Shown here: in pieces, positions 5,213-60,266 of the stretch
Layout of the letters: each line of letters opens with the position of its first letter
Position numbering within the stretch: the stretch's first letter is position 1
NCBI RefSeq assembly: GCF_020886775.1
Contig: NZ_AP024525.1
Location: forward strand, 3,534,001 to 3,598,000
Reading direction: 5' to 3'
From: Sinomonas cyclohexanicum
Lineage (GTDB): Bacteria > Actinomycetota > Actinomycetes > Actinomycetales > Micrococcaceae
DNA length: 64,000 nucleotides
Made by a program: the position numbers and the translations under genes
The notes under the pieces: model-generated
Seen by the model: the letters and a program-made list of their open reading frames with translations, nothing else
Told to the model about the DNA's origin: nothing
Databases searched by the model: none

Positions 5213-5296
5213 GCGCACGACGGCGCCCGCTCGGCGTCGTGCGCCGCCCCACCCGCGGCGCCCTGCCGCGTGTGGCGGCCACACAGCACGACGGCG
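5213..5296. repeat. GCACGACGGCG repeat cluster (facing pair plus single copy)
   Basis: GCGCACGACG (5213-5222) faces CGTCGTGCGC (5235-5244), a 10-bp stem after the allE stop. The first arm continues as the full GCACGACGGCG core (5215-5225), and a further exact core lies at 5286-5296. It is one of several gene-end copies of the dispersed 11-mer described in the findings. Confidence 0.8.
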
Positions 5297-5347
5297 CGGG
5301 GCTGGCCTGGCACTGAGCCGCCCCGCGCCGTCGGAACCACCACAGGG

Positions 5348-5377
5348 AAGGCCCGCCCGAGATCCCGGGCGGGCCTT
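5348..5377. terminator. Bidirectional hairpin terminator
   Basis: AAGGCCCGCCCG (5348-5359), 6-nt loop, then CGGGCGGGCCTT (5366-5377): a perfect 12-bp stem between converging allE and the MmcQ/YjbR gene. The A and T ends could supply short U-runs in both directions. Confidence 0.85.
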
Positions 5378-5419
5378 GCCTGCGTCGAGGGGGCATCTCC
5401 CCGCGGCCCGGGGTCGCCC

Positions 5420-5728
5420 TCAGCCCGCTCCGCCCGCGATCCGGTACGACTCCTCGACCACCTCCGCGAGCTCCTCGCGCGAGATCCGCGCGAGGCGGAC
5501 GAGCACGAGCTCCGGCGAGCCCAGATGATGCGGGATCTCCCAGTAGAACGTCTCAGGGTCCGTGGCGTGCAGCGCCTCGCGCTCCCCCGTCTTGAGCGTC
5601 ACGACGCCCGGCTCCCAGATCCGGGCGAACAGCGTCCTGCCGAACCACGCCGGCTGGTTCCAGCTGGGCCGCTCGGTCACGCCCGGCAGGGCGAGGCAGA
5701 GCTCGCGGACGTCCTCCTCAGTGGCCAT
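5420..5728 (-). CDS. MmcQ/YjbR family protein
   Basis: A small 102-residue protein of the MmcQ/YjbR (CyaY-like fold) DNA-binding-like family. Typical features are the N-terminal helix with LCLALPGVTERPSW, then WNQPAWFGRTLFARIW, GVVTLKTGEREAL and FYWEIPHHLGSPELVLVRL. I start at ATG 5728 because family members begin just before the LPG motif; longer upstream reading is out-of-family. It converges on allE across a shared terminator. The biological role of the family is not established. Confidence 0.85.
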   Translation of the reverse strand: MATEEDVRELCLALPGVTERPSWNQPAWFGRTLFARIWEPGVVTLKTGEREALHATDPETFYWEIPHHLGSPELVLVRLARISREELAEVVEESYRIAGGAG

Positions 5729-5809: not shown

Positions 5810-7033
5810 ATGACCAAACGCAGCAGCTACCCGTGGGCCGTCCTCGCGCACGCCTTCTTCCTCCAGCTCGCCGTGTACATCGTGCGCCCGACGGCGTCCT
5901 ACCGGGCCCTCGAGCTCGGCGTGGACGCCGCGCTGCTCGGGCTCATCGTGGCAAGCTTCTCGCTCCTGCCGCTCGCCGCGGCGGTGTGGGTGGGCAGGAT
6001 GAACGACGCCGGCCACGGCCGCGCGCTGCTGCTCGCCGGGGCGGTGCTCATGGTGGCCTCCGGCGTGGGGCTCTTGGCCGCGACGCCGGACGTGTGGTGG
6101 CTGCTGGGCTGGAATGTGGCGCTCGGGCTCGGGCACCTGGTCAGCCTCCTGGGCGAACAGGCCCGCATCGCCGGGTCGCTCGCCGACGGCGCACAGCGCC
6201 GGAGCCTCGACTCGCTGTTCGGCCTCTACACCTTCACGGGCTCGGCAGGACAGGCGATTGCGCCGTCGCTGCTCGCCGTGGTCGGCGGCGGATCCGTCCT
6301 GCCCCACACGGGCCCACTCTTCGGCTGGTACCTCGCGGCCGCCGCCGGCATGCTCGCCGTGACGCTGCCCCTCGCGCTGCGCCGGGGCGCAACGACGCCG
6401 GCGACGGGCCCGCACGCGGCGAGCGGCGCCGTCGTGCGTGCCCCGGGCCCCTCGCGGCTGGGGATGCGCGCGAGCCTCGCGGCGGACCCGGCCTCGCGCC
6501 GCCCGCTCGTGGCGTCGATCGGCGTCTCGATGATGGTCCTGTGCGCGATCGACCTGATCCAGGTGTACCTGCCCGCCCTCGGGGTGGAGCGGGGAGTGCC
6601 GGCCGCGGCCGTGGGCGCGCTCCTGACGGCGCGGGGGGTCGCGACGATGGCCTCGCGGTTGGCGATGGGCCGGCTCGTGACGGGGTTCGGGCGGCCGTGG
6701 CTCATCCTGTGGGGCACCGCGGCGGGCGCGGCGGCCGTGCTGGCGATTGCGGCGCCGATGCCCGAGTGGGCGCTCGCGGCGGTGCTTGTCGTGGCGGGGT
6801 ACGCGCTGGGGATCGTGCAGCCGCTCACCATGACCGTGGTGTCGCTCGCCGCGCCGCCCGGCACCGCCGGCACTCGGCTCGCGGCCCGCATCACGGCGAA
6901 CCGGCTCGGCCAGGCGCTCATCCCGCCCGCGGTGGGGCTCCTCGCGGCAGGGCTCGGGACGGCCGGCGTGTTCGCCGCGACGGGCGTGCTACTCAGGGCT
7001 GCGGCGGGCGCATGGCGCGCCGTCCGCCCCTGA
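5810..7033 (+). CDS. MFS transporter
   Basis: A 407-residue integral membrane protein with roughly twelve hydrophobic segments. The first loop has the MFS A-like motif GRMNDAGHGR, and a central hydrophilic loop (about residues 190-225) separates the halves. Start ATG 5810 lies just before the first membrane segment (WAVLAHAFFLQLAVYIV). Residues 206-212 are encoded across a copy of the dispersed 11-mer on the other strand (6427-6437). Substrate cannot be read. The gene is followed by the compound palindrome at 7051-7150. Confidence 0.85.
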   Translation: MTKRSSYPWAVLAHAFFLQLAVYIVRPTASYRALELGVDAALLGLIVASFSLLPLAAAVWVGRMNDAGHGRALLLAGAVLMVASGVGLLAATPDVWWLLGWNVALGLGHLVSLLGEQARIAGSLADGAQRRSLDSLFGLYTFTGSAGQAIAPSLLAVVGGGSVLPHTGPLFGWYLAAAAGMLAVTLPLALRRGATTPATGPHAASGAVVRAPGPSRLGMRASLAADPASRRPLVASIGVSMMVLCAIDLIQVYLPALGVERGVPAAAVGALLTARGVATMASRLAMGRLVTGFGRPWLILWGTAAGAAAVLAIAAPMPEWALAAVLVVAGYALGIVQPLTMTVVSLAAPPGTAGTRLAARITANRLGQALIPPAVGLLAAGLGTAGVFAATGVLLRAAAGAWRAVRP

Positions 7034-8583: not shown

Positions 8584-9483
8584 ATGAGCAATCCCGCCAA
8601 GACCAACATCGCCGTCATCGGCCTCGGCATCATGGGCCTCCCCATGGCCGTCAACCTCGTCAAGGCCGGCCACACGGTCACCGGCTACAACCGCAGCGAG
8701 GACAAGGTCACCAAGCTCGTCGCCGAGGGCGGCCAGGGCGCGGGGAGCATCGCGGAGGCGGTCAAGGACGCCGAGGTCATCATCACGATGGTGCCGGACT
8801 CCCCCGACGTCGAGGGCGTCGTCTCCGGCGGCGACGGCGTGTTCGCGAACGCGCCGAAGGGCGCCTTGTGGATCGACGCCTCCTCGATCCGTCCCGACGT
8901 GGCCGCGCGGCTCTCCGCCGATGCCCGCGAGGCCGGCCTCCGCCCCCTCGACGCTCCGGTCTCCGGAGGCGAGCAGGGCGCCATCGACGCCGTCCTGTCC
9001 ATCATGGTTGGCGGAGACAAGGCGGACTTCGACGCCGCACTGCCCGTCCTCGAGGCGGTCGGCAAGACCATCGTCCACGTGGGCCCCTCCGGCTCCGGCC
9101 AGACCGTCAAGGCCGCGAACCAGCTGATCGTCGCCGTCAACATCCAGGCGCTCTCCGAGGCGATCGTCTTCCTCGAGGCGTACGGCGTCGACACGGACGC
9201 CGCGCTCAAGGTCCTCGGCGGCGGCCTCGCCGGCTCGAAGGTCCTGGACCAGAAGGGCCAGAAGATGCTGGACCGCAACTTCGACCCCGGCTTCCGCCTG
9301 GCCCTGCACAACAAGGACCTCGGCATCGTCACCTCGGCCGCCCGCGAGGCCGGCGTGGTCGTCCCGCTCGGCGCGGCCGTCGCGCAGCTGGTCACCGCCC
9401 TCGTCGCCCGCGGCGACGGCGGCCTCGACCACTCCGGCCTCTTCAAGCTCACCGCCGAGCTCTCCGGCAAAGACCGGCGCTGA
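8584..9483 (+). CDS. glxR: 2-hydroxy-3-oxopropionate (tartronate semialdehyde) reductase
   Basis: Reduces tartronate semialdehyde to D-glycerate with NAD(P)H. A beta-hydroxyacid dehydrogenase of 299 residues: nucleotide loop [10 protein letters not shown] (13-22), substrate motif [11 protein letters not shown] (123-133) and catalytic lysine K176 in [11 protein letters not shown]. It follows hyi after 73 bp and precedes gcl after a 205-bp gap with two hairpins. The neighbours complete the route glyoxylate to tartronate semialdehyde to glycerate to phosphoglycerate. Confidence 0.94.
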
Positions 9484-9515: not shown

Positions 9516-9630
9516 CGCACGACGGCGGCCACTCGCCGTCGTGCGCACGGCACCGCACGCTCCGCGCGGCACCTCGCGCAGGCGGTGCCCCACAGACCGC
9601 CGGCCCCGGGCGCGCAACCCCGGGGCCGGC
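9516..9630. terminator. Two hairpins between glxR and gcl, first made of the 11-mer pair
   Basis: CGCACGACGGCG (9516-9527), 6-nt loop, CGCCGTCGTGCG (9534-9545): a perfect 12-bp stem from two facing copies of the dispersed repeat. A second stem GCCGGCCCCGGG (9599-9610) pairs with 9619-9630. No long T-run follows either. They may attenuate or process the transcript inside the operon rather than end it. Confidence 0.7.
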
Positions 9631-15416: not shown

Positions 15417-15758
15417 ATGAGCGTCTCACATGTGACCACCCACATTCTGGATACCGCCGCCGGGAAGCCGGCTGCAGGTGTCGCCGTCGAACTCTACGCC
15501 CGCGACGGCGACGCATGGTCCCGGATTGGCACGGGCATCACCGATGCGGACGGGCGGGTGAAAGACCTCGGCCCCGAGCGGCTGGAAAGCGGCAGCTACC
15601 GCCTCCAGTTCGCCACGGGACCGTACTTCGCCAGCATCGGACAGGACACCTTCTTCCCAGAGGTTTCGCTGACCTTCACGGTCAACGCGGCCGAGGCGCA
15701 CTACCACGTGCCGCTTCTGCTGAGTCCTTTCGCCTTTTCTACTTATCGAGGGAGCTAA
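15417..15758 (+). CDS. uraH: 5-hydroxyisourate hydrolase
   Basis: Transthyretin-like enzyme opening 5-hydroxyisourate to OHCU. 113 residues, with both family signatures: the N-terminal HVTTHILDTAAGKPAAGVAV and the C-terminal tetrapeptide YRGS. Conserved catalytic His and Arg appear in SHVTTH and in the HYHVPLLLSPF strand. It lies between uraD and uricase, so the three steps urate to allantoin are one operon. Confidence 0.95.
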   Translation: MSVSHVTTHILDTAAGKPAAGVAVELYARDGDAWSRIGTGITDADGRVKDLGPERLESGSYRLQFATGPYFASIGQDTFFPEVSLTFTVNAAEAHYHVPLLLSPFAFSTYRGS

Positions 15759-15764
15759 GCGACC

Positions 15765-16718
15765 ATGGCGCAGAACAACAGCAACGAGAACAACAAGATC
15801 GTCCTGGGCAAGAACCAGTACGGCAAGGCCGAGGTCCGCGTCGTCAAGATCACCCGCGACACGGACCGCCACGAGATCGAGGACCTGAGCGTCACGTCGC
15901 AGCTCCGCGGCGACTTCGACGCGGCCCACTTCGAGGGCGACAACGCCCATGTGGTCCCGACGGACACCCAGAAGAACACCGTCTTCGGGTTCGCCCGCGA
16001 CGGCGTCGGCTCGCCCGAGCAGTTCCTCATCCGGCTCGCGAACCACTTCACCTCCGAGTTCGCGTGGGTCACGGGTGGCCGCTGGGAGGCCGAGCAGTAC
16101 GCGTGGGAGCGGATCCAGACCAGCACCGCCCCGGGGGAGGGCAAGGCCGCGGGCCACGACCACTCCTTCGTCCGCAAGGGACAGGAGGTCCGCAACGCGG
16201 TGGTCGTGAAGGACGGCGACGCCATTCAGGTCATCTCGGGCCTCAACGACCTCACGGTCCTCAAGTCGACCCAGTCGGGCTTCGTGGGCTACCCGAAGGA
16301 CCGCTTCACGACGCTCGAGGAGACCACGGACCGCATCCTCGCGACGGACGTCTCGGCCCGCTGGCGCTACAGCCCCGAGGCGATCGCGAACGGCGGCGTC
16401 GACTTCAACAAGTCGTACGACGACGTCAAGGCGCTCCTCCTCGAGGGCTTCACCGAGGGCTATTCGTACGCGCTCCAGCAGACCCTGTTCCAGATGGCGC
16501 AGAAGGTCCTGGACGCCCACCCGGAGATCGAGGAGCTGCGCTTCTCCACGCCGAACAAGCACCACTTCCTCGTGGACCTGACGCCGTTCGGCCTCGACAA
16601 CCCGAACGAGGTCTTCTACGCGGCCGACCGCCCGTACGGCCTCATCGAGGCGAACTTCCAGCGCGAGTCCATCTCGGGCGACAACAACGCGTGGGACGGC
16701 ATCACCGGCTTCTGCTGA
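15765..16718 (+). CDS. Urate oxidase (uricase)
   Basis: Cofactor-free oxidation of urate to 5-hydroxyisourate with H2O2 release. 317 residues with two T-fold domains: NQYGKAEVRVVKITR (catalytic Lys), VVPTDTQKNTVFGFAR (catalytic Thr block), GHDHSFVRKGQEVRN and LKSTQSGFVGYPKDRFTTL, then FSTPNKHHFLVDL. GAGGGAG precedes the ATG. Known symbols differ by genus (uox, pucL). Three hairpins separate it from the permease gene. Confidence 0.96.
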   Translation: MAQNNSNENNKIVLGKNQYGKAEVRVVKITRDTDRHEIEDLSVTSQLRGDFDAAHFEGDNAHVVPTDTQKNTVFGFARDGVGSPEQFLIRLANHFTSEFAWVTGGRWEAEQYAWERIQTSTAPGEGKAAGHDHSFVRKGQEVRNAVVVKDGDAIQVISGLNDLTVLKSTQSGFVGYPKDRFTTLEETTDRILATDVSARWRYSPEAIANGGVDFNKSYDDVKALLLEGFTEGYSYALQQTLFQMAQKVLDAHPEIEELRFSTPNKHHFLVDLTPFGLDNPNEVFYAADRPYGLIEANFQRESISGDNNAWDGITGFC

Positions 16719-16774: not shown

Positions 16775-16906
16775 GCACGACGGCGGTGAACTCCGGCCGC
16801 CGTCGTCCTCCTTCCGCTCGCCCCCTTCGGGCGAGATCGCCCCGGTTCCGGGGCCACCTGACCGCCGCGGGCGGCCCTGCCCTCCCTGGGGCCGGCCGCC
16901 CGCGGC
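16775..16906 (+). terminator. Hairpin series between uricase and permease
   Basis: The 11-mer at 16775-16785 faces CCGCCGTCGT (16797-16806), a 10-bp stem. CTCGCCC/GGGCGAG follows at about 16817-16834. GCCGCGGGCGGCC (16864-16876) pairs perfectly with 16894-16906. Together they could reduce transcription from uricase into the permease. The remainder of the 247-bp gap has no other clear signal. Confidence 0.65.
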
Positions 16907-18590: not shown

Positions 18591-19031
18591 ATGCCCACCC
18601 AGCGTCAGATCACCGTCCGCCGTGCGCCCAAGTACGTCCCGTTCCTCGTGGCGGGCGGCCTGCTCGGCGTCATCGTCGCGGCGGTGACCTCCTACTCGGT
18701 CCCGGCCCCGAAGGACTACACGCAGGGCTCGGTCTTCGGCTACTTCCTGGTCCTGTTCGCAGCGGCGGGCGTCCTGGTGGGCGGCGTCGTCGCCCTCGTC
18801 CTGGACCGCGTCCTCCTGCGCCGCACCGAGCGCGCGACCGTCGAGGAGATCGACGAGCCCGAGGAGACCCCGGAGACCGAGGCCGTCGGTGCGCCGGCGC
18901 ACGACGGCGAGCACGCGCCGTCGTCCGCGGAGACCGCCTCTGGCGACGGCACAGGCGAGGGCACGGCCGGAGGTGCCGCCGCCGCGAGCGCGCCGAAGGA
19001 CCCCGAGGCGGGTGCCACCTCGGCTCCGTGA
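18591..19031 (+). CDS. Small membrane protein upstream of purF
   Basis: 146 residues with two membrane segments (about 16-33, VPFLVAGGLLGVIVAAVTSY, and 47-70, VFGYFLVLFAAAGVLVGGVVALVL). An acidic/Ala-rich, probably disordered cytoplasmic tail follows. No function is known to me. The tail carries a copy of the dispersed 11-mer (18899-18909) facing a degenerate inverted copy (18916-18924). It ends 12 bp before purF and is probably cotranscribed. Confidence 0.7.
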   Translation: MPTQRQITVRRAPKYVPFLVAGGLLGVIVAAVTSYSVPAPKDYTQGSVFGYFLVLFAAAGVLVGGVVALVLDRVLLRRTERATVEEIDEPEETPETEAVGAPAHDGEHAPSSAETASGDGTGEGTAGGAAAASAPKDPEAGATSAP

Positions 19032-19043: not shown

Positions 19044-20717
19044 GTGGTACGCGGTGACGGACTCCTCTCCCTTGATATAGATCCCCTTGACAAAGGCCCC
19101 AAGGACGCCTGTGGCGTCTTCGGTGTGTGGGCACCCGGCGAGGAGGTCGCCAAGCTCACGTATTACGGCCTGTACGCCCTCCAGCACCGCGGGCAGGAGT
19201 CCGCGGGCATCGCCACGAGCGACGGCGAGCGCATCAGCGTGTACAAGGACATGGGCCTCGTCTCGCAGGTGTTCGACGAGTCGACCCTGAACTCGCTCAC
19301 GGGGCACCTCGCGGTGGGCCACTGCCGCTACTCGACGACGGGCGCGAGCCACTGGGCCAACGCGCAGCCCACGCTCGGCGCAACCGCGTCCGGAACCGTG
19401 GCCCTCGCCCACAACGGCAACCTCACCAACACCGCCGAGCTCCGCGACATGATCGAGGAGCTCACGGGCGGCGAGCTCACGGGCGAGATGAAGCAGGGAA
19501 ACACCTCGGACACGGCGCTCGTGACGGCGCTCCTGGCGGGCCAGAAGGGCCAGACGCTCGAGGAGACCGCCATGGAGCTGCTGCCGAAGATCCGCGGCGG
19601 CTTCTGCTTCGTCTTCATGGACGAGAACACGATCTACGCCGCGCGGGACACCTTCGGGATCCGGCCGCTGTGCCTGGGCCGCCTCGAGCGCGGCTGGGTG
19701 GTCGCGTCGGAGCAGTCCGCGCTGGCGACCGTGGGCGCGAGCTTCATCCGCGAGATCGAGCCGGGCGAGTTCATCGCGATCGACGAGAACGGCGTCCGCT
19801 CGCAGCGCTTCGGCAAGCCCACCCCGGCCGGGTGCGTCTTCGAGTACGTCTATCTGGCCCGCCCGGACGCGAGCATCGCGGGCCGCTCCGTGTACGAGTC
19901 CCGCGTCGAGATGGGCCGCCAGCTGGCCCGCGAGAACACCCACGACGCGGACATCGTCATCCCCGTCCCCGAGTCCGGCACCCCGGCCGCGGTGGGCTAC
20001 GCGGAGGAGTCCGGCATCCCGTTCGCGCACGGCTTCGTCAAGAACGCCTACGTGGGCCGCACGTTCATCCAGCCGTCCCAGACCCTGCGCCAGCTCGGCA
20101 TCCGGCTCAAGCTCAACGCGCTCGAGTCCGTGATCCGCGGCAAGCGCGTGGTCGTCGTGGACGACTCGATTGTGCGCGGCAACACCCAGCGCGCGATCGT
20201 GCGCATGCTGCGCGAGGCGGGCGCGGCCGAGGTCCACGTCAAGATCTCCTCGCCGCCCGTGAAGTGGCCATGCTTCTACGGCATCGACTTCGCCTCGCGC
20301 GCCGAGCTCATCGCCAACGGCGCCACGATCGAGGAGATCTCCCAGGCCATCGGCGCCGATTCCCTCGGGTACATCTCCGAGAACGGGATGATCGCCGCGA
20401 CCCAGCAGCCGCGTGAGCGCCTCTGCACCGCGTGCTTCACGGGCACGTACCCGATCGAGCTGCCCAGCGCGGACAAGCTCGGGAAGAACCTGCTCGAGCG
20501 GCGGAACGGCACGGAGGGCGGAGCGCACGACGGCGCCGGCTTGCCGGACGCCGTCGGGTCGCCGGACGGCGACGCTCCCCTCGAACCGGTCACCGACGCC
20601 GAGGACGGGGGCCACCCGGGCTCGACCGGCTGCGACCCGGGCCCGGACTCGGAGTTCGAACCCCTGCTGACCGAGGCAGACAAGACGCCCGACGCCGTGA
20701 GGAAAGAGACCGTATGA
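19044..20717 (+). CDS. purF: Amidophosphoribosyltransferase
   Basis: First committed step of purine synthesis (PRPP plus glutamine to phosphoribosylamine). N-terminal nucleophile domain: after a 22-residue propeptide C23 begins CGVFGVWAPGEE, with YYGLYALQHRGQES. The PRPP loop is VVVVDDSIVRGNTQR. Cysteines in AGCVFEYV, WPCFYGID and LCTACFTG fit the [4Fe-4S] class. At 557 residues it is long because of a polar tail (about 490-557) that includes AHDGAG, encoded by the dispersed 11-mer. GTG start. It overlaps purM by 4 bp. Confidence 0.96.
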   Translation: MVRGDGLLSLDIDPLDKGPKDACGVFGVWAPGEEVAKLTYYGLYALQHRGQESAGIATSDGERISVYKDMGLVSQVFDESTLNSLTGHLAVGHCRYSTTGASHWANAQPTLGATASGTVALAHNGNLTNTAELRDMIEELTGGELTGEMKQGNTSDTALVTALLAGQKGQTLEETAMELLPKIRGGFCFVFMDENTIYAARDTFGIRPLCLGRLERGWVVASEQSALATVGASFIREIEPGEFIAIDENGVRSQRFGKPTPAGCVFEYVYLARPDASIAGRSVYESRVEMGRQLARENTHDADIVIPVPESGTPAAVGYAEESGIPFAHGFVKNAYVGRTFIQPSQTLRQLGIRLKLNALESVIRGKRVVVVDDSIVRGNTQRAIVRMLREAGAAEVHVKISSPPVKWPCFYGIDFASRAELIANGATIEEISQAIGADSLGYISENGMIAATQQPRERLCTACFTGTYPIELPSADKLGKNLLERRNGTEGGAHDGAGLPDAVGSPDGDAPLEPVTDAEDGGHPGSTGCDPGPDSEFEPLLTEADKTPDAVRKETV

Positions 20718-22084: not shown

Positions 22085-23293
22085 ATGTCTGGCACCGTGG
22101 ACCCCATGACTGAGAAGCCTCAGGAGACGGCCCACAGCGCGGCGCCCGTCTTCGACTGGGACCCCCGCTCGGAGGAGGTCCAGGCCGACCAGATTGCCGC
22201 CTACGACGCGATGCGCGCGCGGTGCCCTGTGGCGCTCGGGGCCCAGGGCAACTGGGCCGTGTTCGGGCACGCGGACAACCGCGCGATCCTCGACGACCCC
22301 CGCACGTTCTCCAACGCCGTCTCAACGCACCTGACCGTCCCCAACGGCATGGATCCGCCCGAGCACGGGCCCTACCGCGCAATCGTCGACAAGTACTACA
22401 CCCCCTGGCGCATGCACGCCTTCGAGCCCACGTGCCGTCGGATCGCGCACCGCCTCGTCGCGGCGCTCCCCCGGGACGCCGAGGTCGAGATCATGGGCGC
22501 CCTCGCCGAGCCGTTCGCGAATGAGGTCCAGTGCGCCTTCATGGGCTGGCCGGACACGCTCCACGGCCCGCTGCGCGAATGGACCAAGAAGAACCACGCC
22601 GCAACCCTGAGCCTCGACCGGGCCGCGATGTCCGCCATCGCCCTCGAGTTCGACGGCTACATCCGCGAGCAGCTCGAGCTGCGGCGGAAGGCCGGGGCCG
22701 CGGCACCCGAGGACGCGACCACCGAGCTGCTCGGCGAGGAGGTCCACGGCCGCACCCTCTCCGACGAGGAGATCGTCTCGATCGTGCGCAACTGGACGGT
22801 CGGCGAACTCGGCACGATCGCCGCGAGCGTCGGGATCATCGCGCGGTTCCTCGCCACCCACCCGGACGTGCAGGCTGATCTGCGGTCCCGGAGGCACGAC
22901 GGCGCCCTGCTCGCCAGAGCGAGCGACGAGATCCTCCGCCTCGACGCGCCACTGATCGCCAACCGTCGCAGGACCACCCGCGAGGTCACGATCGGGGGCA
23001 GGACCGTCCCCTCCGGGGAGCGCGTCGTGGTGCTCTGGGCCTCCGCGAATCGGGACGGGAGCGTGTTCGAACAGCCCGACGAGTTCAGGCTCGACCGCAA
23101 TCCGGCCGACAACCTGCTCTACGGGGAGGGGATCCACGCGTGCCCGGGCGCCCCGCTCGCCCGGCTCGAGCTGAGCGTGCTCATGCAGGAGCTGCTGGGT
23201 GGTACGGCGGCGATCGAGCCGGCGGGCGAGGCGCCGCAGCGGGCGCGCTACCCGTCGGGCGGGTGGAGCACGGTGGGCGTGCGCCTCGCCTGA
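22085..23293 (+). CDS. Cytochrome P450
   Basis: Haem-thiolate monooxygenase, about 400 residues, soluble bacterial class. The haem loop YGEGIHACPGAPLARLE has the cysteine ligand, the K-helix ExxR is EILR in ASDEILRLDAP, and the I-helix region WTVGELGTIAASVG is degenerate at the usual acid-Thr pair (G-T retained). PPEHGPYR is the C-helix block. Start may be ATG 22085 or ATG 22109; neither has a good ribosome site. No ferredoxin or reductase gene is adjacent, so redox partner and substrate are unknown. Confidence 0.9.
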   Translation: MSGTVDPMTEKPQETAHSAAPVFDWDPRSEEVQADQIAAYDAMRARCPVALGAQGNWAVFGHADNRAILDDPRTFSNAVSTHLTVPNGMDPPEHGPYRAIVDKYYTPWRMHAFEPTCRRIAHRLVAALPRDAEVEIMGALAEPFANEVQCAFMGWPDTLHGPLREWTKKNHAATLSLDRAAMSAIALEFDGYIREQLELRRKAGAAAPEDATTELLGEEVHGRTLSDEEIVSIVRNWTVGELGTIAASVGIIARFLATHPDVQADLRSRRHDGALLARASDEILRLDAPLIANRRRTTREVTIGGRTVPSGERVVVLWASANRDGSVFEQPDEFRLDRNPADNLLYGEGIHACPGAPLARLELSVLMQELLGGTAAIEPAGEAPQRARYPSGGWSTVGVRLA

Positions 23294-25327: not shown

Positions 25328-25364
25328 CCGCCGCCGAGGTCACACGGGGTGACCTCGGCGGCGG
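25328..25364. terminator. Bidirectional hairpin terminator
   Basis: CCGCCGCCGAGGTCAC (25328-25343), loop ACGGG, and its perfect complement (25349-25364): a 16-bp stem between the converging gene at 24691 and clpB. Confidence 0.85.
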
Positions 25365-28189: not shown

Positions 28190-29128
28190 ATGGGCATCCT
28201 CATCGACTCCCCGATCTGGCCCGCGCACGGGACGGTGTTCGCGCATCTCGTCTCGGATGCGTCCCTCACCGAGCTGCACGCCTTCGCGGCCGCAGCGGGG
28301 ATCCCCGAGCGCGCCTTCGACGAGGACCATTACGACGTCCCCGAGCGCCGCCATGCCGAGCTCGTGGCACTCGGCGCCCGCGAGGTGACGGGCCGTGCGC
28401 TCGCCCGCGCCCTAATAGGCTCGGGTCTGCGAGTGCCAGCACGCGAGCGTGCCAAGGCCTTGGAGCGCCCGCTCCTGCAGCGCTGGGAGGCCCTCCTGCC
28501 CGGACGGGGCGACCTGGGCCGCGAGCTCTTGGACCGCTGGGCCGAGCCGCACCGCCGCTACCACACGCGCGCCCACCTCTTCGCCGTCCTGGAGTCCCTC
28601 GAGCGGATTGCGGACGGGGGCTCCTCGCCCCACGGGGCGCCGCGCGCCGTCGTGCTCGCGGCCTGGTTCCACGACGCGGTCTACCGAGCGGGAGACGCCA
28701 GCGGGCGGGAGGGAGAAGCCGGCGCCGCCCCGGGGCAGGATGAGGAGGACTCGGCGCTCCTCGCCGAGGACCGGCTGAGCGGGGCGGGCCTGCCCGACGC
28801 GGAGGTGGGCGAGGTGGGGCGGCTCGTGCGGCTCACTGCGGCGCACGCCCCCGAGGCGCACGACGGCGCCGGCCAGCTCATGTGCGACGCCGACCTCGAG
28901 GTACTGGGCCGGGATCCACACGCCTATCGGCGCTACGCCCGCCAGGTGCGCGAGGAGTTCGCGCACGTCCCCGACGAGCTGTTCCGCGCGGGCCGGGCCG
29001 CGGTGCTGGAATCGCTCCTGGACCTCGACCCACTCTTCCACACCGAAACGGCTCGCGGCCTGTGGGCCGCGCAGGCCCGGCTGAACCTCCGGGCCGAGCT
29101 CGAGGCGGGGTCCTGGATCGGGCAGTGA
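28190..29128 (+). CDS. DUF4031 - HD-domain fusion protein
   Basis: 312 residues with two parts. Residues 1-85 are DUF4031 (MGILIDSPIWPAHGTVFAHLVSD, FDEDHYDVPERRHAELVALGA). From about 120 there is a predicted HD metal-dependent hydrolase: HRRYHTRAHLFAVLESL, AAWFHDAVY (His-Asp), LIRLTAAHAPE-like region and MCDADLEVLG (distal Asp). Start ATG 28190 is chosen because DUF4031 begins there; the upstream 27 codons overlap the clpB regulatory region. Two copies of the dispersed 11-mer lie inside (28645-28655, 28858-28868). Substrate unknown. Confidence 0.8.
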   Translation: MGILIDSPIWPAHGTVFAHLVSDASLTELHAFAAAAGIPERAFDEDHYDVPERRHAELVALGAREVTGRALARALIGSGLRVPARERAKALERPLLQRWEALLPGRGDLGRELLDRWAEPHRRYHTRAHLFAVLESLERIADGGSSPHGAPRAVVLAAWFHDAVYRAGDASGREGEAGAAPGQDEEDSALLAEDRLSGAGLPDAEVGEVGRLVRLTAAHAPEAHDGAGQLMCDADLEVLGRDPHAYRRYARQVREEFAHVPDELFRAGRAAVLESLLDLDPLFHTETARGLWAAQARLNLRAELEAGSWIGQ

Positions 29129-30756: not shown

Positions 30757-30800
30757 GGCACCAGTCTGCCCCGATGCGGCCCACTACCTATAGTTATCCC

Positions 30801-32372: not shown

Positions 32373-32393
32373 AAGGAGGGGCCGCACTCGGCT

Positions 32394-32448
32394 CCCCGGA
32401 CGAGGGAACCCAGTACCCGGAACGCGACAAGACTGGCCGGAAGGTTCC
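32394..32448 (+). promoter_or_regulatory. Guanidine-III (ykkC-III) riboswitch
   Basis: Conserved blocks of the class in order: CCGGACGAGG (32396-32405), GTACCCGG (32413-32420), GACAAGAC (32426-32433). Helix CCAGT (32410-32414) with ACTGG (32432-32436). The pseudoknot is CCGG 32396-32399 with CCGG 32417-32420. A third CCGG and GGTTCC (32443-32448, complementary to GGAACC 32405-32410) overlap the ribosome site GGAAGG 6 nt before the ATG, so control is probably translational. It sits before an SMR exporter pair, the known target type. Confidence 0.92.
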
Positions 32449-32450: not shown

Positions 32451-32765
32451 ATGTCCTGGGTCGTCCTCATCGCGTCCGGCGCCCTCGAGGCCGTCTGGGC
32501 GGCCGCGCTCGAGCGCTCACACGGCTTCCGCCGCCCCCTCCCCACCCTCGTGTTCCTGCTCGCGCTCGGCGCCAGCATGGGCGGGCTCTCGTGGGCGCTC
32601 ACCGAGATCCCCGTCGGCACCGGCTACGCCGTGTGGGTCGGCGTGGGCGTGGTGCTGACGGCGGTGTACGCCATGGTGCGCAAGCTTGAGCGCACGACGG
32701 CGGCGCGCGTACTCCTGCTGCTCGGCATCGCCGGGTGCGTGGCCGGGCTCAAGGCGGTGGCGTAG
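32451..32765 (+). CDS. SMR guanidinium exporter subunit 1
   Basis: 104-residue small multidrug resistance protein with four membrane helices and the SugE/Gdx-like start MSWVVLIASGALEAVWAAALE, where the helix-1 glutamate E14 is the proton/substrate site. GTGYAVWVGVGVVLTA is the helix-3 motif. Under a guanidine-III riboswitch it should be a Gdx-type guanidinium exporter. The second subunit starts 2 bp after its stop, indicating an antiparallel heterodimer. Confidence 0.9.
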   Translation: MSWVVLIASGALEAVWAAALERSHGFRRPLPTLVFLLALGASMGGLSWALTEIPVGTGYAVWVGVGVVLTAVYAMVRKLERTTAARVLLLLGIAGCVAGLKAVA

Positions 32766-39400: not shown

Positions 39401-40240
39401 ATGAGCGAGCACCCCAACCCCGTCACCCCCGGCTCCCAGGCCTCCTTCGGCACGTACCGGCGGCAGCCGGTGAGCTTCGTCCGGCGCGGGACCCGGCTTC
39501 AGGGGCGGCGGCAGGCGGCGTGGGACGAGCACGCGGACGCGTTCGTGGTGGACGTCCCGCGGCACGTCGCGGACACGTCGGTGCATCCGGACTACGAGTT
39601 CGACGCGGCGGCGGAGTTCGGCCGCCCTGCGCCGCTCGTCGTCGAGATCGGCTCGGGACTCGGCGAGGCGATCGTGGCGGCGGCCGAGGCGGACCCGGCC
39701 CGCAACTACCTCGCCGTCGAGGTCTACAAGCCGGGCCTCGCGAACACGCTCCTGCGGATCGGCCAGCGCGGCCTCACCAACGTGCGCGTGGTCCAGGCCA
39801 ACGCGCCCGAGGTGCTCGGCAGCATGCTGCCCGCCGGGTCCGTGGCGGAGCTGTGGGTGTTCTTCCCCGACCCGTGGCACAAGACGAAGCACCACAAGCG
39901 CCGGCTCGTGCAGGAGTCCTTCGCGGGGCTCGCCGCCCGCGCCCTCGCGCCGGGCGGGCTGTGGAGGCTCGCGACCGACTGGTCCGGCTACGCGCAGCAG
40001 ATGCGCGAGGTCATCGCCGCCTCGCCGGAGTTCCGCAACGCGCACGACGGCGAACTGGCCGGCTCCGAGAGCCCCCTCACCGCGGCGTGGGCCTCCGGTG
40101 TGGACTGCGAGGCCACGGGGGACCTTGACCACGTGGGCGGCTGGGCGCCGCGCTTCGACGGGCGCGTGCTCACGAGCTTCGAGAACAAGGCCCACCAGGC
40201 CGGCCGGGTGATCTTCGACCTCACGGCCGTGCGAGCGTAG
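39401..40240 (+). CDS. trmB: tRNA (guanine-N7-)-methyltransferase
   Basis: SAM-dependent formation of m7G46 in tRNA variable loops. 279 residues: N-terminal actinobacterial FGTYRRQPVSFVRRGTRLQGRRQAAW, SAM loop VVEIGSGLGEAIV, NYLAVEVYKPGLANTL, ELWVFFPDPWHKTKHHKRRLVQ (catalytic region) and LATDWSGYAQQM. Start ATG 39401. AHDG at about 215 is encoded by the dispersed 11-mer (40042-40052). Confidence 0.95.
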   Translation: MSEHPNPVTPGSQASFGTYRRQPVSFVRRGTRLQGRRQAAWDEHADAFVVDVPRHVADTSVHPDYEFDAAAEFGRPAPLVVEIGSGLGEAIVAAAEADPARNYLAVEVYKPGLANTLLRIGQRGLTNVRVVQANAPEVLGSMLPAGSVAELWVFFPDPWHKTKHHKRRLVQESFAGLAARALAPGGLWRLATDWSGYAQQMREVIAASPEFRNAHDGELAGSESPLTAAWASGVDCEATGDLDHVGGWAPRFDGRVLTSFENKAHQAGRVIFDLTAVRA

Positions 40241-41027: not shown

Positions 41028-41062
41028 CCCGCGCGGCGGGACCTGTTCCCGCGCACGACGGC

Positions 41063-41102
41063 GGGCCCCGCCTCCCGGAGATCTTTCCGGGAGGCGGGGC
41101 CC
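41063..41102. terminator. Bidirectional hairpin terminator
   Basis: GGGCCCCGCCTCCCGGA (41063-41079), 6-nt loop, perfect complement (41086-41102): a 17-bp stem between converging gntR and the dimethylglycine oxidase gene. An exact copy of the 11-mer (41053-41063) abuts its left side. Confidence 0.88.
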
Positions 41103-46347: not shown

Positions 46348-47187
46348 TCAGAGGGCCGGCTCGCTCTCGTCGAGCTCCTCGAACTCGACTGCGGCGAGCA
46401 CCCTCCCGTCCTCGGGATCGATCATGTAGGCCTCGTCGTCCTCCTCGACCATGAGGTACTCGCCCTGATCGGTCGTGAAGCGCCACGCGAGGGTCCTGAC
46501 GCCGTCGTGCATGTAGTTCGGGTCGCCCATCGTGATCGCGGTCAGCTCGTGGCCGGCCACGTCGCACAGCTCGCGGATCACGAGCTCGAACTCGGGCATG
46601 TCCGCGAAGTCTTCGGCCCGGGCGGCTGCACGGCGCTCCTCGAGGTCCTCGATGAGGCCAACCCGCCGGGCGATCTCGTCCTCGATCCCGTCGTCGTCGA
46701 GAGCGAGGAGGCCCTCCTGGCCGCGGAGCCACGCGGCGTTGAGCGCCACGAGGTCCTGTTCGTCCTGGAGCGCCTCGAAGCGCTCGTCGAGCTCCTCGAG
46801 CGCGGCCACGGCCGGGGAGGTCCCGTCCTCGCCGTCGAGGTACGCCTCGACGTCGTCCGCGGAGAGTCCGTCGAACGCGGAGGTGAGCTCGTCGAAGAGC
46901 GTCGCGTGCTGGGGCGCGCCCATCTCGCGCAGCCCGTCCCGGATGAGCCCGTCCGTGCGCCGGCGGTCCCCCGCGGTGAAGACGTACTGGGCAAACCCGC
47001 CGTCGAGCATCTGCGTCAGGTAGAAGTCAACGAAGTAGCTGCGCAGTGCGTTCACGGCGATCTCGCGCTCGTCGAGCAGCTCCTCGTACATCGCGTTGAC
47101 AACGTCGACGTTCGCATCGACGACCGCCTCGTCGCCCGCGTGCAGGGCTTCGGCGGGAAGGACAACGGGGTGCTGGCTGGTGCTCAT
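46348..47187 (-). CDS. DUF4375 (DMP19-like) protein
   Basis: 279 residues, acidic. NAMYEELLDEREIAVNALRSYF and VDFYLTQMLDGGFAQYVFTAG resemble the DMP19/DUF4375 domain (the GGFxQYF element). The C-terminal part has GDPNYMHDGVRTLAWRFT and YMIDPEDGRVLAAVEFEE. No enzyme motif seen. ATG 47187 is chosen over ATG 47217 because GAGGAG lies 8 nt upstream. Function unknown. Confidence 0.65.
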   Translation of the reverse strand: MSTSQHPVVLPAEALHAGDEAVVDANVDVVNAMYEELLDEREIAVNALRSYFVDFYLTQMLDGGFAQYVFTAGDRRRTDGLIRDGLREMGAPQHATLFDELTSAFDGLSADDVEAYLDGEDGTSPAVAALEELDERFEALQDEQDLVALNAAWLRGQEGLLALDDDGIEDEIARRVGLIEDLEERRAAARAEDFADMPEFELVIRELCDVAGHELTAITMGDPNYMHDGVRTLAWRFTTDQGEYLMVEEDDEAYMIDPEDGRVLAAVEFEELDESEPAL

Positions 47188-49585: not shown

Positions 49586-49587
49586 GG

Positions 49588-53986
<4,399 letters not shown>

Positions 53987-54098
53987 CGGCCAAGCCTAGC
54001 GCCGCGCGCACGAGGCGACGCGGCGCCGTCGTGCGCCGCGGGGCTGTGGGTCAGGCGCGCGCGTCACACGCGCGCGCCCGGCGAGGATCCGGTGAGGA

Positions 54099-56768: not shown

Positions 56769-58915
56769 GCCGCGTGGCCGGCGGAAGCGGGCCCCGGCCG
56801 GTCGTCGTCGCGATCGATGGCCGCTCGGGGGCCGGCAAGACGTCCCTCGCCGTCGAGCTGGCCGCCGCGCTGCGTGAGCACCGCACGGTGGCCCTCGTGC
56901 ACCTCGAGGACCTCTACCCGGGGTGGGACGGCCTCGGAGAGGGGATCCGCCGCTGCGCCGAGCAGGTCCTTGCGGCGCTGTCCCAGGGCAAGCCGGCCCG
57001 GTGGCGCGCGTGGGACTGGGCGGCCGGCGCGGAGGGGCCGGAGCGGGTGACCCAGCCCGCCGACGTCGTGCTCGTCGAGGGCGTCGGCGCGGGCGCGGGC
57101 CCCCTGCGCGCACTGTCCGACGCGCTCGTGTGGGTCGAGGCGCCGGCCGAGGAGCGCAAACGCCGCGCCCTCGCCCGCGACGGCGACGTCTACGCGCCGC
57201 ATTGGGACCGCTGGGCAGCGCAGGAGGAGGCGTGGCTCGCGCACGACGACGCCGCCTCGGCCGCCGCCGTCACCGTCGCCTCCCTCGCGGGCCCGGACAG
57301 GCCAGACGGGCTCACGGCCCGGGTGCTCAGCGCGCTCGCCGAGCTGCCGCAGCTTCGCGAGTTCCTCGCGCCCGAGCGGTCCGGGCGGGAGTCCGCGGGC
57401 GCCGTCGTGCGCAGGATGCGGGGGGTGCCGGATCCCGAACGGCTCTTCGGCGAGCTGTTCGGCGGCTCCGGGCACGCCGTGTGGCTCGACTCCTCCGACG
57501 CCGAGGCCGGGGCCCCTGACGCCGAAGTCTGGCCCCCTGACGCCGAGGTCATCCGGCGGAATCGGTTCAGCATCATGGCCGACGACGGCGGCGAGCTCGG
57601 CCGCCGGATGTCCCATCGTCGGGGCCTGACCGAGGTCATCGAGGGCCCCGCGACCGACGCCCCGGTGAACGTGCGCTTCGACGCGCCGTTCTTCCGCTGG
57701 CTCGACTCCGAATGGGGGCACGGCCAGACGCCGGCCGTCCCGGGCCTGGAGTGCGGATTCGCGCTCGGCTGGCTCGGCTATCTCGGGTACGAGCTCAAGA
57801 GGGAGTGCGGCGGATCGGACGCCGACCCCGGGCTGCCCGACGCCCAGCTCCTCTACGCGGCACGCGCCGTCGTCCTCGACCATGCGCTCGGCGAGGCCTG
57901 GCTTCTCGCCCTCGACGCGCCGGATGCCGGGGCGTGGCTCGACGCCGCGTCCACAGCCGTCGATGAGTGCACACAGGACCAGACCCCGGCGTCACAGGGC
58001 CCGGCCTCCGCGCCGGAGCCGGCCTTCACGGCCCGGGACTCCGCCGCCGCATACATGGACAAGGTCCGCGCGGCCCAGGCGGAGATCACCGAGGGCAATA
58101 CGTACGAGGTCTGCCTCACGACCACCCTGGAGGCGACGGTCCCGCATCCGCCCGGCCAGCCCGGCGTCGAGCCCCTTGAGATCTACCGCGCCCTGCGCCG
58201 CCGCAGCCCGGCGCCGTTCGCGGCGTTCGCGCGTTTCGGCGGCCTCCAGATCGCGAGCACGTCCCCGGAGCGGTTCCTGTCCCTCACGGCGGACGGCGCC
58301 CTCCGCGCCGAGCCCATCAAGGGCACCCGCCGCCGGTCCCCCACCGCGTCCCCCACTCACGCCGCACTCGCCGACGAGCGAACGCGCGCCGAGCTCGCCG
58401 CGAACCCCAAGGACCGCGCGGAGAACCTGATGATCGTGGACCTGCTCCGCAACGACCTCAGCCACCACGCAGTCCCGGGGTCGGTGCGCGTCTCGCGCCT
58501 CTTCGCGGTCGAGACGTACGCGACCGTCCACCAGCTCGTGAGCACCATCGACGCGCGTCTCCGGCCCGGTGCCTCCCGCGCGGAGGCCATCGCGGCGGCG
58601 TTCCCACCGGGTTCCATGACGGGCGCGCCGAAGATCAGCACGATGGGCATCCTCGACCGCCTCGAGGCCGGCCCGCGCGGCGTCTACTCGGGCGTGATCG
58701 GCTACTTCTCCCGCACGGGAGCCGCGGACCTCTCCGTGGTGATCCGCACATTGGTCGTCGAGCGGCTCGGCGGCGCGCACGACGGCGCCACCCGCCTCAC
58801 GCTGGGAGTGGGCGGCGCCGTCGTGGCCGACTCTGACCCGGCCGACGAGTACGAGGAGATCCGCACCAAGGCCTTCGCGGTCCTCAGCACGCTCGGTGCC
58901 GAGTTCCCGGGCTGA
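56765..58915 (+). CDS. pabB: P-loop kinase - aminodeoxychorismate synthase component I fusion
   Basis: 716 residues. Residues about 10-200 are a uridine-kinase-like P-loop domain: VVVAIDGRSGAGKTSLAVEL (Walker A 19-26), VHLEDLYPGW, VVLVEGVGAG. A linker (200-260) has PDAEV repeats encoded by a 21-bp duplication. The rest is chorismate-binding: LGWLGYLGYELKRE, EGNTYEVCLTT, PEPIKGT-type RAEPIKGTRR (K519; PIKGT marks PabB rather than TrpE), ENLMIVDLLRNDLS, PGSMTGAPKI and RGVYSGVIGYF. Makes aminodeoxychorismate for folate; pabC is at 61778. Role of the kinase part unknown. Confidence 0.9.
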   Translation: MSRVAGGSGPRPVVVAIDGRSGAGKTSLAVELAAALREHRTVALVHLEDLYPGWDGLGEGIRRCAEQVLAALSQGKPARWRAWDWAAGAEGPERVTQPADVVLVEGVGAGAGPLRALSDALVWVEAPAEERKRRALARDGDVYAPHWDRWAAQEEAWLAHDDAASAAAVTVASLAGPDRPDGLTARVLSALAELPQLREFLAPERSGRESAGAVVRRMRGVPDPERLFGELFGGSGHAVWLDSSDAEAGAPDAEVWPPDAEVIRRNRFSIMADDGGELGRRMSHRRGLTEVIEGPATDAPVNVRFDAPFFRWLDSEWGHGQTPAVPGLECGFALGWLGYLGYELKRECGGSDADPGLPDAQLLYAARAVVLDHALGEAWLLALDAPDAGAWLDAASTAVDECTQDQTPASQGPASAPEPAFTARDSAAAYMDKVRAAQAEITEGNTYEVCLTTTLEATVPHPPGQPGVEPLEIYRALRRRSPAPFAAFARFGGLQIASTSPERFLSLTADGALRAEPIKGTRRRSPTASPTHAALADERTRAELAANPKDRAENLMIVDLLRNDLSHHAVPGSVRVSRLFAVETYATVHQLVSTIDARLRPGASRAEAIAAAFPPGSMTGAPKISTMGILDRLEAGPRGVYSGVIGYFSRTGAADLSVVIRTLVVERLGGAHDGATRLTLGVGGAVVADSDPADEYEEIRTKAFAVLSTLGAEFPG

Positions 58916-58991
58916 CCCGCGAGCCGGCCGAAGCCTTTGGAAGTCACGTCCTGGGAGTCACCTCTTGTGACCCCCACGAGGCGACCCTTAG

Positions 58992-60194
58992 ATGGATGGC
59001 ATGAAGGCCATCGTCGTGGGCGCCGGGATCGCCGGCCTGGTCACCGCCCGGCAGCTGGGCCTGGCCGGCTGGGAGGTCGAGGTCATCGAGCGGTCGCCGG
59101 GCCCGCGCAAGGACGGGTACATGATGGACTTCTTCGGCCCGGGCGTGGAGGCCTCGGAGCGGATCGGCCTGTACCCTCGGCTCGCGGCGGCATCGTATCG
59201 GGTCGAGGCGGCCCAGTACGTCACGCCCGAGGGCCGCGTCACGTCGAGCCTGAGCTACCGCCGCTTCGCCGACCTCGCGGGGGGAAAGGTCCTGAGCCTC
59301 CTCCGCCCCGACATGGAACTCGCGGCCCTCGACGCGCTCCGCGACGTCCCCGCCGGCCGGGTCGAGGTCCGCTACGGCGCGGGCGTCGGGGACGCCGCTG
59401 TGCGGGCCTTCGCAGCGGACGCCGACGTAGTGATCGGGGCGGACGGCATCCACTCGGAGGTCCGCGCGCAGGCGTTCGGCCCGGAGCCGGAGTTCCTCCG
59501 CCCTCTCGGGATGCGCGCCGCCGCATTCATCGTCACGGAGCCGATCCTCAACGCGCGCTTCCACAACAGGTTCATCCTCACGGACAGCATCGACCGCATG
59601 GCCGGGCTATACAGCCTCCGCACCGACGAGGTCGCCGCATTCCTCGTCTACCGTGACACGGCAGACGGCGCCGCACACGACGCTGCCCCGGCCACCCTGC
59701 TGGACGCCCGCGCCCGCCTGCGGGAGCGCTTCGCCGGCCTCGGGCCCACCGTGGACCGGCTCCTCGAGCTGTGCCCCGAGCACCCCTACGACGACGTCGT
59801 CGCACAGATCGTCATGCCCCACTGGCAGACGACCCACCGGCACACCGCGGACCGCCGCGCTGCCCCCGTGGTCCTCGTCGGCGACGCGTGCGGCGCGGTC
59901 TCCCTCCTGGCCGGGCAGGGCGGCTCGCTCGCGATCGCCGGCGCCGCGCTCCTCGGCGACCTGCTCGGACCGGTCGCCGGCCCCGAGGGGATCCCCGCTG
60001 CCCTCGCCGCGTTCGAGGACCGCTGGCGCCCCTTCGTGCTCACCGCACAGGCGTCCGGCCGGCGCGCGGCGGCCTCATTCCTCCCATCCGGGCCCCTCGC
60101 GCGGCTCCTGCGGCGGTGGGTCATCCGCGCGTCGAACCTGCCGGTGATCGACGGGATCGTCGCCCGCAGCATCGTGGGCAGGATCGCGAAGTAG
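58992..60194 (+). CDS. FAD-dependent monooxygenase
   Basis: 400 residues of the PHBH/TetX-like class. IVVGAGIAGLVTARQLGLAGWEVEVIER (FAD Rossmann loop), VVIGADGIHSEVRAQ (DG motif) and VVLVGDACGAVSLLAGQGGSLAIAGA (GD motif with active-site Pro replaced by L). The C-terminal helices are amphipathic. ATG 58992 or ATG 59001. The upstream gap has a GGGAGTCACCTC repeat (58953-58964). Substrate not predictable. Confidence 0.9.
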   Translation: MDGMKAIVVGAGIAGLVTARQLGLAGWEVEVIERSPGPRKDGYMMDFFGPGVEASERIGLYPRLAAASYRVEAAQYVTPEGRVTSSLSYRRFADLAGGKVLSLLRPDMELAALDALRDVPAGRVEVRYGAGVGDAAVRAFAADADVVIGADGIHSEVRAQAFGPEPEFLRPLGMRAAAFIVTEPILNARFHNRFILTDSIDRMAGLYSLRTDEVAAFLVYRDTADGAAHDAAPATLLDARARLRERFAGLGPTVDRLLELCPEHPYDDVVAQIVMPHWQTTHRHTADRRAAPVVLVGDACGAVSLLAGQGGSLAIAGAALLGDLLGPVAGPEGIPAALAAFEDRWRPFVLTAQASGRRAAASFLPSGPLARLLRRWVIRASNLPVIDGIVARSIVGRIAK

Positions 60195-60217
60195 CGTCCC
60201 GCGTCGCACACCGCTCG

Positions 60218-60266
60218 GCGCACGACGGCGCCGTCCCCACCAAGGCGGGCACGCGCCGTCGTGCGC
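60218..60266. terminator. Terminator-like facing pair of the 11-mer
   Basis: GCGCACGACGGCG (60218-60230) and CGCCGTCGTGCGC (60254-60266) form a perfect 13-bp stem with a 23-nt loop between the converging monooxygenase and cardiolipin synthase genes. Clearest gene-end example of the dispersed repeat. Confidence 0.85.

Follow-up and report, generated by a model that had tools for sequence, protein, structure and literature searches.

A dispersed 11-mer of Sinomonas as a candidate DNA uptake sequence with clade-specific dialects

Neisseriaceae and Pasteurellaceae are both Gram-negative families. A 2016 review names these two as the families with sequence-specific DNA uptake (PMC5031613), and for mycobacteria the relevant passage of another paper gives no sequence-specific uptake as reported (PMC10526031). 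The uptake words of the Neisseriaceae come in dialects, and Neisseria carries about 1900 copies (PMC3630211). As summarized in one account, 65% of the words in H. influenzae and 35% of those in N. gonorrhoeae lie in open reading frames, non-coding DNA has an excess of them, their orientation is unbiased, and about 10% form inverted repeats with no bias toward gene ends (PMC1939737). In addition, TerminatorNet reports, for the two known families, that as many as 22% and 37% of terminators contain uptake words, and its main text contains none of the terms "Actinobacteria", "Actinomycet", or "Micrococc" (PMC13020248). Here, these words are compared with an 11-mer, GCACGACGGCG, that is dispersed through a 64,000-nucleotide stretch of Sinomonas cyclohexanicum (the window, positions 3,534,001-3,598,000 of contig NZ_AP024525.1) and through the chromosome around it. 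From the distribution of its copies, GCACGACGGCG is likely to be a DNA uptake sequence, by which Sinomonas would recognize its own DNA during natural transformation and which would have evolved independently of the Neisseriaceae DNA uptake sequence (DUS) and the Pasteurellaceae uptake signal sequence (USS).

The genome of the window is referred to as G000 and the other Sinomonas genomes compared as G001-G014. After their first letters, GCACGACGGCG is called the GCAC word, GGACGACGGCG the GGAC word, and GCCCGACGGCG the GCCC word.

Abundance and placement of the word

The window holds 23 exact copies of GCACGACGGCG on its two strands, whereas dinucleotide-shuffled versions of it (n = 100) average 0.51 and never exceed 3. 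The 22 copies that an earlier note on this DNA had listed are all exact and correctly placed; its tally of at least 22 holds, while a further copy at 46500-46510 on the minus strand had been overlooked. Across the single contig of G000 (4,413,566 bases), the word occurs 974 times (499 forward, 475 reverse), approximately one exact copy per 4.5 kb, and the reversed word, used as a control, 19 times (8 forward, 11 reverse). The word is therefore spread over the whole chromosome, and the note's proviso that copies might be confined to the window does not apply. The placement of copies was analyzed in a 464-kb sample consisting of the window and 20 evenly spread stretches of 20 kb, to which the counts in this section refer unless the whole genome is named. 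This sample contains 139 copies, where third- and fifth-order Markov models expect 5.1 and 11.9, respectively, and GCACGACGGCG and its sub-words head the 9- to 12-mers ranked by Markov excess, a comparison of the kind that the note had proposed. Two of the sampled stretches, 2740001-2760000 and 2300001-2320000, hold 0 and 1 copies and might be recent islands.

The preference extends beyond the 11-mer. Just 5' of the word, R and then C are favoured (98% and 90% of intergenic copies, 89% and 57% of genic copies), which lengthens the word to RCGCACGACGGCG. Variants with a single change are also in excess, with 294 copies where 115.5 are expected, and the over-represented ones are GGACGACGGCG (46 vs 6.1) and GCACGACGCCG (41 vs 4.4). 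Changes at word positions 7, 8, 10, and 11 were found in 12 copies, compared with about 25 expected.

Genes were called with our own dicodon caller instead of a standard program. On these calls, 88 copies are genic, 51 are intergenic, and none straddles a gene boundary, corresponding to 0.21 per kb within and 1.16 per kb between genes, a 5.6-fold difference. In the window, nine of the 23 copies are intergenic and 14 are coding, and the nine match the number in the note. When synonymous codons were shuffled within genes (n = 50), the mean number of genic copies was 13.4 and the maximum 20, compared with the actual 88. The HDG and AVV readings that the note had picked out dominate the frames of the genic copies, with AVV in 48 and HDG in 25, followed by TTA-type frames in 10 and others in 5; altogether, 51 of the 88 are antisense to their gene. 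The AVV frame, in which the word is antisense, exceeds the shuffled genes strongly (48 vs 4.05), as does the TTA-type sense frame (10 vs 1.25), and the HDG sense frame exceeds them by 2.8-fold (25 vs 8.85). It thus appears that a DNA word is favoured and not a peptide.

Between genes, 22 copies lie in convergent gaps (7347 bp), 16 in gaps of type << (12,546 bp), 11 in gaps of type >> (12,965 bp), and 2 in divergent gaps, which make up 24% of the intergenic base pairs (10,317 bp). With paired copies counted singly, the convergent excess has a P of ~1e-5 and the divergent deficit a P of 2e-4. By strand, there are 29 plus and 34 minus copies in the first half of the contig and 46 plus and 30 minus in the second. 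By replichore, the mapping that the note had called for, the leading strand has 59 copies and the lagging strand 80 (P 0.09), with the origin assumed at the contig start, near a RecF-like frame recognized by eye at ~4-5 kb, and the terminus at the middle. A strand skew of the Chi or KOPS kind is absent, and a replichore bias is not clear.

Many of the intergenic copies face each other. Genome-wide, G000 contains 72 perfect inverted pairs of GCACGACGGCG with 3-33 bases between the arms, and 0 pairs of the reversed control. A perfect facing partner within ~60 bases was found for 30 of the 139 copies, namely 28 of 51 intergenic and 2 of 88 genic ones, compared with 2% of control positions; when up to 3 mismatches are allowed, 42 of the 51 intergenic copies have one, compared with 24% of control positions. 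Among 17 neighbours starting within 60 bp of each other, 15 have the order GCACGACGGCG...CGCCGTCGTGC, one the opposite order, and one is in tandem. The folding energies of four hairpins range from -27 to -69 kcal/mol, and each of the four beats all 200 of its own shuffles. The facing stems at gene ends that the note had described are among these structures: the copies at 9517/9534 and at 60220/60254 pair without mismatch over 11 bp as the arms of longer hairpins, at 9517-9544 (-27.2 kcal/mol, z -4.4) and 60220-60264 (-51.2 kcal/mol, z -6.6). By eye, the 11-mer is constant at the hairpin sites, the inner stem and loop vary from site to site, and no T-run follows the listed hairpins. With a constant 11-mer next to a variable inner stem, conservation concerns more than the ability to pair.

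Dialects, turnover, and plasmids

Dialect words were chosen from sampled stretches, and three words were counted genome-wide. GCAC/GGAC counts are 974/300 in G000, 754/301 in G002, 804/290 in G003, 759/287 in G014, and 502/224 in G012, all GCAC-rich, and 425/331 in G004, 438/321 in G008, and 464/317 in G013, where GCAC preference is weak. G011 is mixed (606/575), and six genomes are GGAC-rich: G010 (173/482), G009 (242/552), G007 (256/694), G006 (181/448), G005 (217/499), and G001 (151/722). Perfect hairpins follow the same division. Those of the GCAC word number 33 in G002, 37 in G003, 29 in G014, 24 in G012, 19 in G004, 16 in G008, 22 in G013, and 26 in G011, next to the 72 of G000, and 1 in G010, 2 in G009, 0 in G007, 1 in G006, 1 in G005, and 0 in G001. 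Those of the GGAC word number 12, 9, 16, 6, 8, and 29 in the latter six, 12 in G011, and 5-16 across the eight GCAC-preferring genomes. In a midpoint-rooted tree of the 15 Sinomonas genomes, built from three proteins, some of them partial, the six GGAC genomes form one clade (ultrafast bootstrap 100) with the mixed G011 beside them, and the branch that separates this group of seven from the remaining eight genomes also has a support of 100. One Sinomonas clade thus prefers GGACGACGGCG both as single copies and in hairpins.

Further counts bear on the two words. In 80 kb sampled from G001, GGACGACGGCG ranks first among the 11-mers (23 vs 1.2), and genic GGAC copies exceed synonymous shuffles in G001 (17 vs 4.0), G007 (10 vs 1.9), and G009 (9 vs 2.1). 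The intergenic density of the GCAC word is above the genic one in G003 (0.76 vs 0.16 per kb) and G013 (0.68 vs 0.09 per kb). Word counts were also made in 8 of 80 named comEA loci fetched, of which the five ranked first come from one Sinomonas sp., S. atrocyanea (two records), S. susongensis, and S. mesophila; GCAC/GGAC counts in five from Sinomonas (~17-21 kb) are 2/1, 4/0, 3/0, 0/2, and 3/1, and outside the genus 0/0 in one from Arthrobacter and 0/1 and 0/0 in two from Microbacterium.

Outside Sinomonas, the signal becomes sparse. Among 394 genomes of the class (six of the family, with G000 the only Sinomonas), 31 have any inverted pair with C or G at position 2, and G000 has 97 of these pairs where the next highest genome has 6; reversed-control pairs occur once each in six genomes. 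The GCAC pair is present in 42 of 148 relatives, and the highest counts outside Sinomonas are 12 (G052), 11 (G076), and 10 (G037). In G076, which belongs to another genus of the family (g10), GCC is the commonest prefix to CGACGGCG (21 vs 2.2), and GCCC hairpins number 20 in G076, 21 in G052, and 3 in G023 of the same genus. Of the 148 genomes, 18 have any GCCC hairpin, with at most 4 outside g10; in Sinomonas there are 0 in 13 of 15 genomes, including G000, 1 in G004, and 2 in G008 (control 1). The dialect words share CGACGGCG and differ in the preceding triplet, which is GCA in G000, GGA in the sister clade, and GCC in the other genus. In 60 kb of G021 (61% G+C, same family), GTA is the leading prefix to CGACGGCG (6 vs 0.1); ACGACGGCGAT (9 vs 0.1) and GTACGACGGCG (6 vs 0.1) are top words there and represent a possible fourth dialect. 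The dicodon table trained on G000 yields coding fractions of 0.54 in G075 and 0.46 in G021, and gene-based numbers for these two carry no weight, since the table is poor on genomes of lower G+C. Neither shuffling of synonymous codons nor counting of prefixes brought out a clear signal in G015, G075, or G130 (family f8), and the firm claim is therefore limited to Sinomonas, while genus g10 is supported by its hairpins and G021, G033, and G037 are leads. In genus g9 (G022, G051, G075), short hairpins near GGACGACGGCGGGAGGTCCCGCCGTCGTCC recur almost unchanged and look more like a copied element than like the variable hairpins of Sinomonas.

The comparison of relatives suggested in the note was made on syntenic stretches of seven Sinomonas genomes, which align with the window over 24-51 kb and are 79-85% identical to it. 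The 14 coding sites yielded 57 gap-free comparisons, 20 of them exact and 24 with one mismatch, so that 44 of 57 show 0-1 difference, compared with 40% for nearby control 11-mers; the 57 come from 14 sites in seven genomes and are not independent. Of the 29 single-mismatch comparisons at all 23 sites, 12 are C>G at position 2 and 10 fall at position 9. Gaps or a lack of alignment make 41 of the 98 comparisons at coding sites uninformative, and 42 of the 63 at intergenic sites. Where homologous sites align, the word has spread and turned over by point changes, mostly single ones.

Finally, the words are under-represented in two further replicons, one of them a proven plasmid. The second contig of G013 is plasmid pSA01 of S. 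atrocyanea KCTC 3377 (identical over the 20 kb compared), and 80 of its 82 kb contain 1 GCAC copy, compared with 8.3 at the rate of the genome (P 0.0024). The second contig of G009 (202 kb, type not proven, 80 kb read) contains 1 GGAC copy, compared with an expectation of 9.5 (P 0.0008).

Copies in the window

Among the intergenic copies of the window, two on the plus strand occupy the same convergent interval, one at 5215-5225, 18 bp after the plus-strand gene 4366-5196 and with a degenerate facing arm downstream, and one at 5286-5296. The arms of the first hairpin, at 9517-9527 (+) and 9534-9544 (-), follow gene 8584-9483, and those of the second, at 60220-60230 (+) and 60254-60264 (-), lie between the convergent genes 58992-60194 and 60281-61738. 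The copy at 16775-16785 (+) is intergenic by the dicodon calls, 56 bp after gene 15765-16718; the remaining two are at 41053-41063 (+), between convergent gene ends, and at 54024-54034 (-).

Within genes, the fate of a copy in the seven congeners differs from site to site. The copy at 18899-18909 (+, gene 18591-19031) is exact in four, has one mismatch in two, and is unaligned in one, and that at 22894-22904 (+, gene 22085-23293) is exact in three and unaligned in four. The site at 20525-20535 (+, gene 19044-20717) is gapped or unaligned in all seven. Gene 28190-29128 has two copies, at 28645-28655 (-), which reads GGAC in four congeners, is exact in two, and unaligned in one, and at 28858-28868 (+). 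The copy at 51810-51820 (+, gene 51682-52560) reads GGAC in two, is exact in two, and unaligned in three. Gene 56774-58915 likewise contains two, at 57400-57410 (-), with one mismatch, at position 9, in four of seven congeners, and at 58777-58787 (+), exact in three and GGAC in two. The other genic copies are at 6427-6437 (-, in the plus-strand gene 5810-7033), 31517-31527 (+, gene 30774-32372), 32692-32702 (+, gene 32451-32765), 40042-40052 (+, gene 39401-40240), and 52690-52700 (-, gene 52544-53986), together with the added copy at 46500-46510, in gene 46348-47187.

An Rfam family was rejected as the source of the word, as the sole window match at gathering level is a Guanidine-III riboswitch aptamer at 32375-32441 (+, 49.6 bits, above the gathering score). 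Separately, one fetched stretch of congener G002 contains arrays of 21-bp tandem repeats with core GGGGTGACCTC (15681-15851, 19353-19539, and 19772-19861 of that stretch), and a single hairpin with the same core is present in the window at ~25331-25363.

Possible function and comparison with described systems

The word is non-palindromic, occurs in genes on both strands, is in excess in non-coding DNA, forms inverted pairs at gene ends, lacks a clear strand bias, comes in dialects, turns over by point changes, and is scarce on a plasmid. This set of traits matches that of described uptake sequences, which argues for the uptake-sequence reading and bears out the uptake-signal-like distribution that the note had proposed; the enrichment beyond codon bias adds to it. 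To our knowledge, no other class of motif has all these traits together.

The competence and pilus genes that the note had suggested looking for were found in G000, comprising comEA-comEC at ~2,224-2,227 kb, dprA at 2,460,614, and two tad/flp-like loci. The first locus (~3,086-3,093 kb) has TadE-, TadG-, RcpC-, AAA-, T2SSE-, two T2SSF-, and Flp-like frames, with the Flp match below the Pfam cut-off, and the second (~3,468-3,473 kb) has T2SSE, T2SSF, and DUF4244, with Tad/TadE matches below cut-off. In G010, of the GGAC dialect, the comEC match is split over contigs C12 and C14, one piece having an internal TGA, perhaps owing to a broken gene or an assembly break. Micrococcus luteus is in the same family as Sinomonas (Micrococcaceae), and its transformation is described as requiring tad genes, arranged in two clusters (PMC4322843).

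We infer that Sinomonas is competent, that its uptake is biased by sequence through a receptor, and that the hairpins act as terminators. Competent cells would bind double-stranded DNA at their surface through a Tad/Flp competence pilus, and a putative surface or pilus-tip protein would prefer fragments that carry the word; the TadE/TadG-like proteins and ComEA are no more than candidates for this receptor. ComEA and ComEC could then import one strand, and DprA together with recombination could insert it. Biased uptake followed by recombination would constitute a molecular drive, by which the word may spread through point changes wherever proteins tolerate them, and the word may have been reused for hairpin arms at gene ends, where it would probably serve in transcription terminators. 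A wider proposal is also somewhat more likely than not, namely that self-tagged uptake arose a third time and independently in Gram-positive Actinomycetota, where Sinomonas would share it with one or more other genera of the family, with CGACGGCG-based words bearing clade-specific 5' triplets (GCA, GGA, GCC, and perhaps GTA), reading by a Tad/Flp pilus, and dialects that may act as sexual barriers between related soil bacteria.

Several observations weigh against an uptake function. comEC is present in 143 of 148 relatives and the T2SSE ATPase in 147, including genomes without the word; as both are near-universal, the machinery does not track the word, its presence permits uptake without arguing for it, and a correlation with either gene over the 148 relatives was set aside as uninformative. 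PilM (PilM_2) of type IVa pili is found in 0 of 90 family genomes and in 25 others of the order, which makes a ComP-like route in its usual setting unlikely. Position 9 lies inside the shared CGACGGCG and tolerates change, as seen from the over-represented GCACGACGCCG and from the orthologous sites at which it is often the single mismatch. The plasmid evidence comprises one proven plasmid and one 202-kb replicon of unproven type, and pSA01 carries 3 GGAC copies and the G009 replicon 2 GCAC copies. Within the genus, G004, G008, and G013 favour GCAC weakly in hairpins as well (GCAC/GGAC 19/16, 16/12, and 22/10), the intergenic excess of GCAC is weak in the G002 sample (0.27 vs 0.21 per kb), 80 kb of G009 has 0 intergenic GGAC copies, and in G007 and G009 the GGAC word coincides in part with GAC runs that stem from codon usage and does not stand alone at the top of the word list. 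The density of GCACGACGGCG is also below that of Neisseria, given the genome size of the latter, and no paper naming Sinomonas turned up in a search of the open-access literature.

Chi and KOPS are short, very abundant, chromosomal, species-specific words with a strong strand bias, for which a higher intergenic density and gene-end hairpins are not expected. A Chi-like recombination hotspot or another intracellular word, read by a helicase-nuclease, a translocase, or a nucleoid protein, would share the genome-wide spread, the genic copies, the clade dialects, and the plasmid scarcity, and the slight lagging-strand excess may be real. However, neither sampled half of the chromosome has a strong strand bias, an 809-kb span takes in the first 100 forward copies and would take in 91 without bias, and the intergenic density and hairpin pairs fit such words poorly, making this explanation, one of those the note had offered, unlikely. 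The hairpins might instead suggest a family of terminators or attenuators whose arm is conserved for a reason at the RNA level, with the genic copies as spill-over. Their folding energies, the 72 pairs, and the facing arms of most intergenic copies agree with this. Yet 88 of the 139 copies are genic, 51 of them antisense and only 2 with a perfect facing arm, the 11-mer stays constant next to a changing inner stem, and T-runs are lacking by eye, so that a terminator origin seems improbable.

Mobile palindromes spread by a transposase, of the kind of repetitive extragenic palindromic elements or miniature inverted-repeat transposable elements, were another alternative in the note. They would produce dispersed intergenic inverted repeats, and the 42 unaligned intergenic comparisons leave room for insertions; nevertheless, gap-free sites in the seven congeners differ by point changes, most copies are partnerless genic 11-mers, and the loops and inner stems of the hairpins look mutually unrelated by eye, which leaves a mobile origin very improbable. 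Least credible is a codon-pair or oligonucleotide bias of a genome with 71% G+C. CAC, GAC, and GGC are preferred codons, the HDG frame alone is raised 2.8-fold, and many relatives outside the genus have a mild excess, for which such bias may account in weakly enriched genera. For G000 it is refuted, against the note's reservation, by the AVV and TTA-type frames under synonymous shuffling, by the Markov models and the intergenic excess, and by hairpins whose control count is 0.

If GCACGACGGCG is indeed an uptake sequence, it would be a third case, in a monoderm with Tad pili, implying that sequence-specific uptake has evolved more than once and with more than one type of pilus. The theory of molecular drive could be tested in a new lineage, the search for the receptor would gain a new starting point, gene exchange among related soil bacteria would become predictable, and their genetics would gain a practical handle. 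Judged by titles and the beginnings of abstracts in the open-access literature, which leaves subscription papers mostly outside and is weak evidence of absence, none of the papers listed reports an uptake word in actinobacteria; among the matches listed for the three literal word strings in open-access papers, none is by its title on the subject.

Compared with known systems, GCACGACGGCG resembles Chi and KOPS as a short, abundant chromosomal word and differs from them in not being strongly strand-biased (59 leading vs 80 lagging). Tad/Flp-dependent transformation of M. luteus is a parallel from the same family, as G000 has comEA, comEC, and two tad-like loci, while the main text of neither PMC4322843 nor PMC8467076 contains "uptake sequence" or "uptake signal". 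From the Pasteurellaceae USS the word differs in sequence and lineage, and 30 of 139 copies in G000 have a perfect facing partner, compared with the roughly 10% of inverted repeats in the USS paper (PMC1939737). It is likewise unrelated in sequence to the Neisseriaceae DUS, and it belongs to Gram-positive actinobacteria of a family without PilM, with about one exact copy per 4.5 kb. The two are alike as abundant, non-palindromic words of 10-12 bp found in genes and in gene-end hairpins and having clade dialects that differ by single bases. Even the mixed genome has its counterpart there: two near-equal dialects are reported for Simonsiella muelleri (2257/2292; PMC3630211), as seen here in G011 (606/575).

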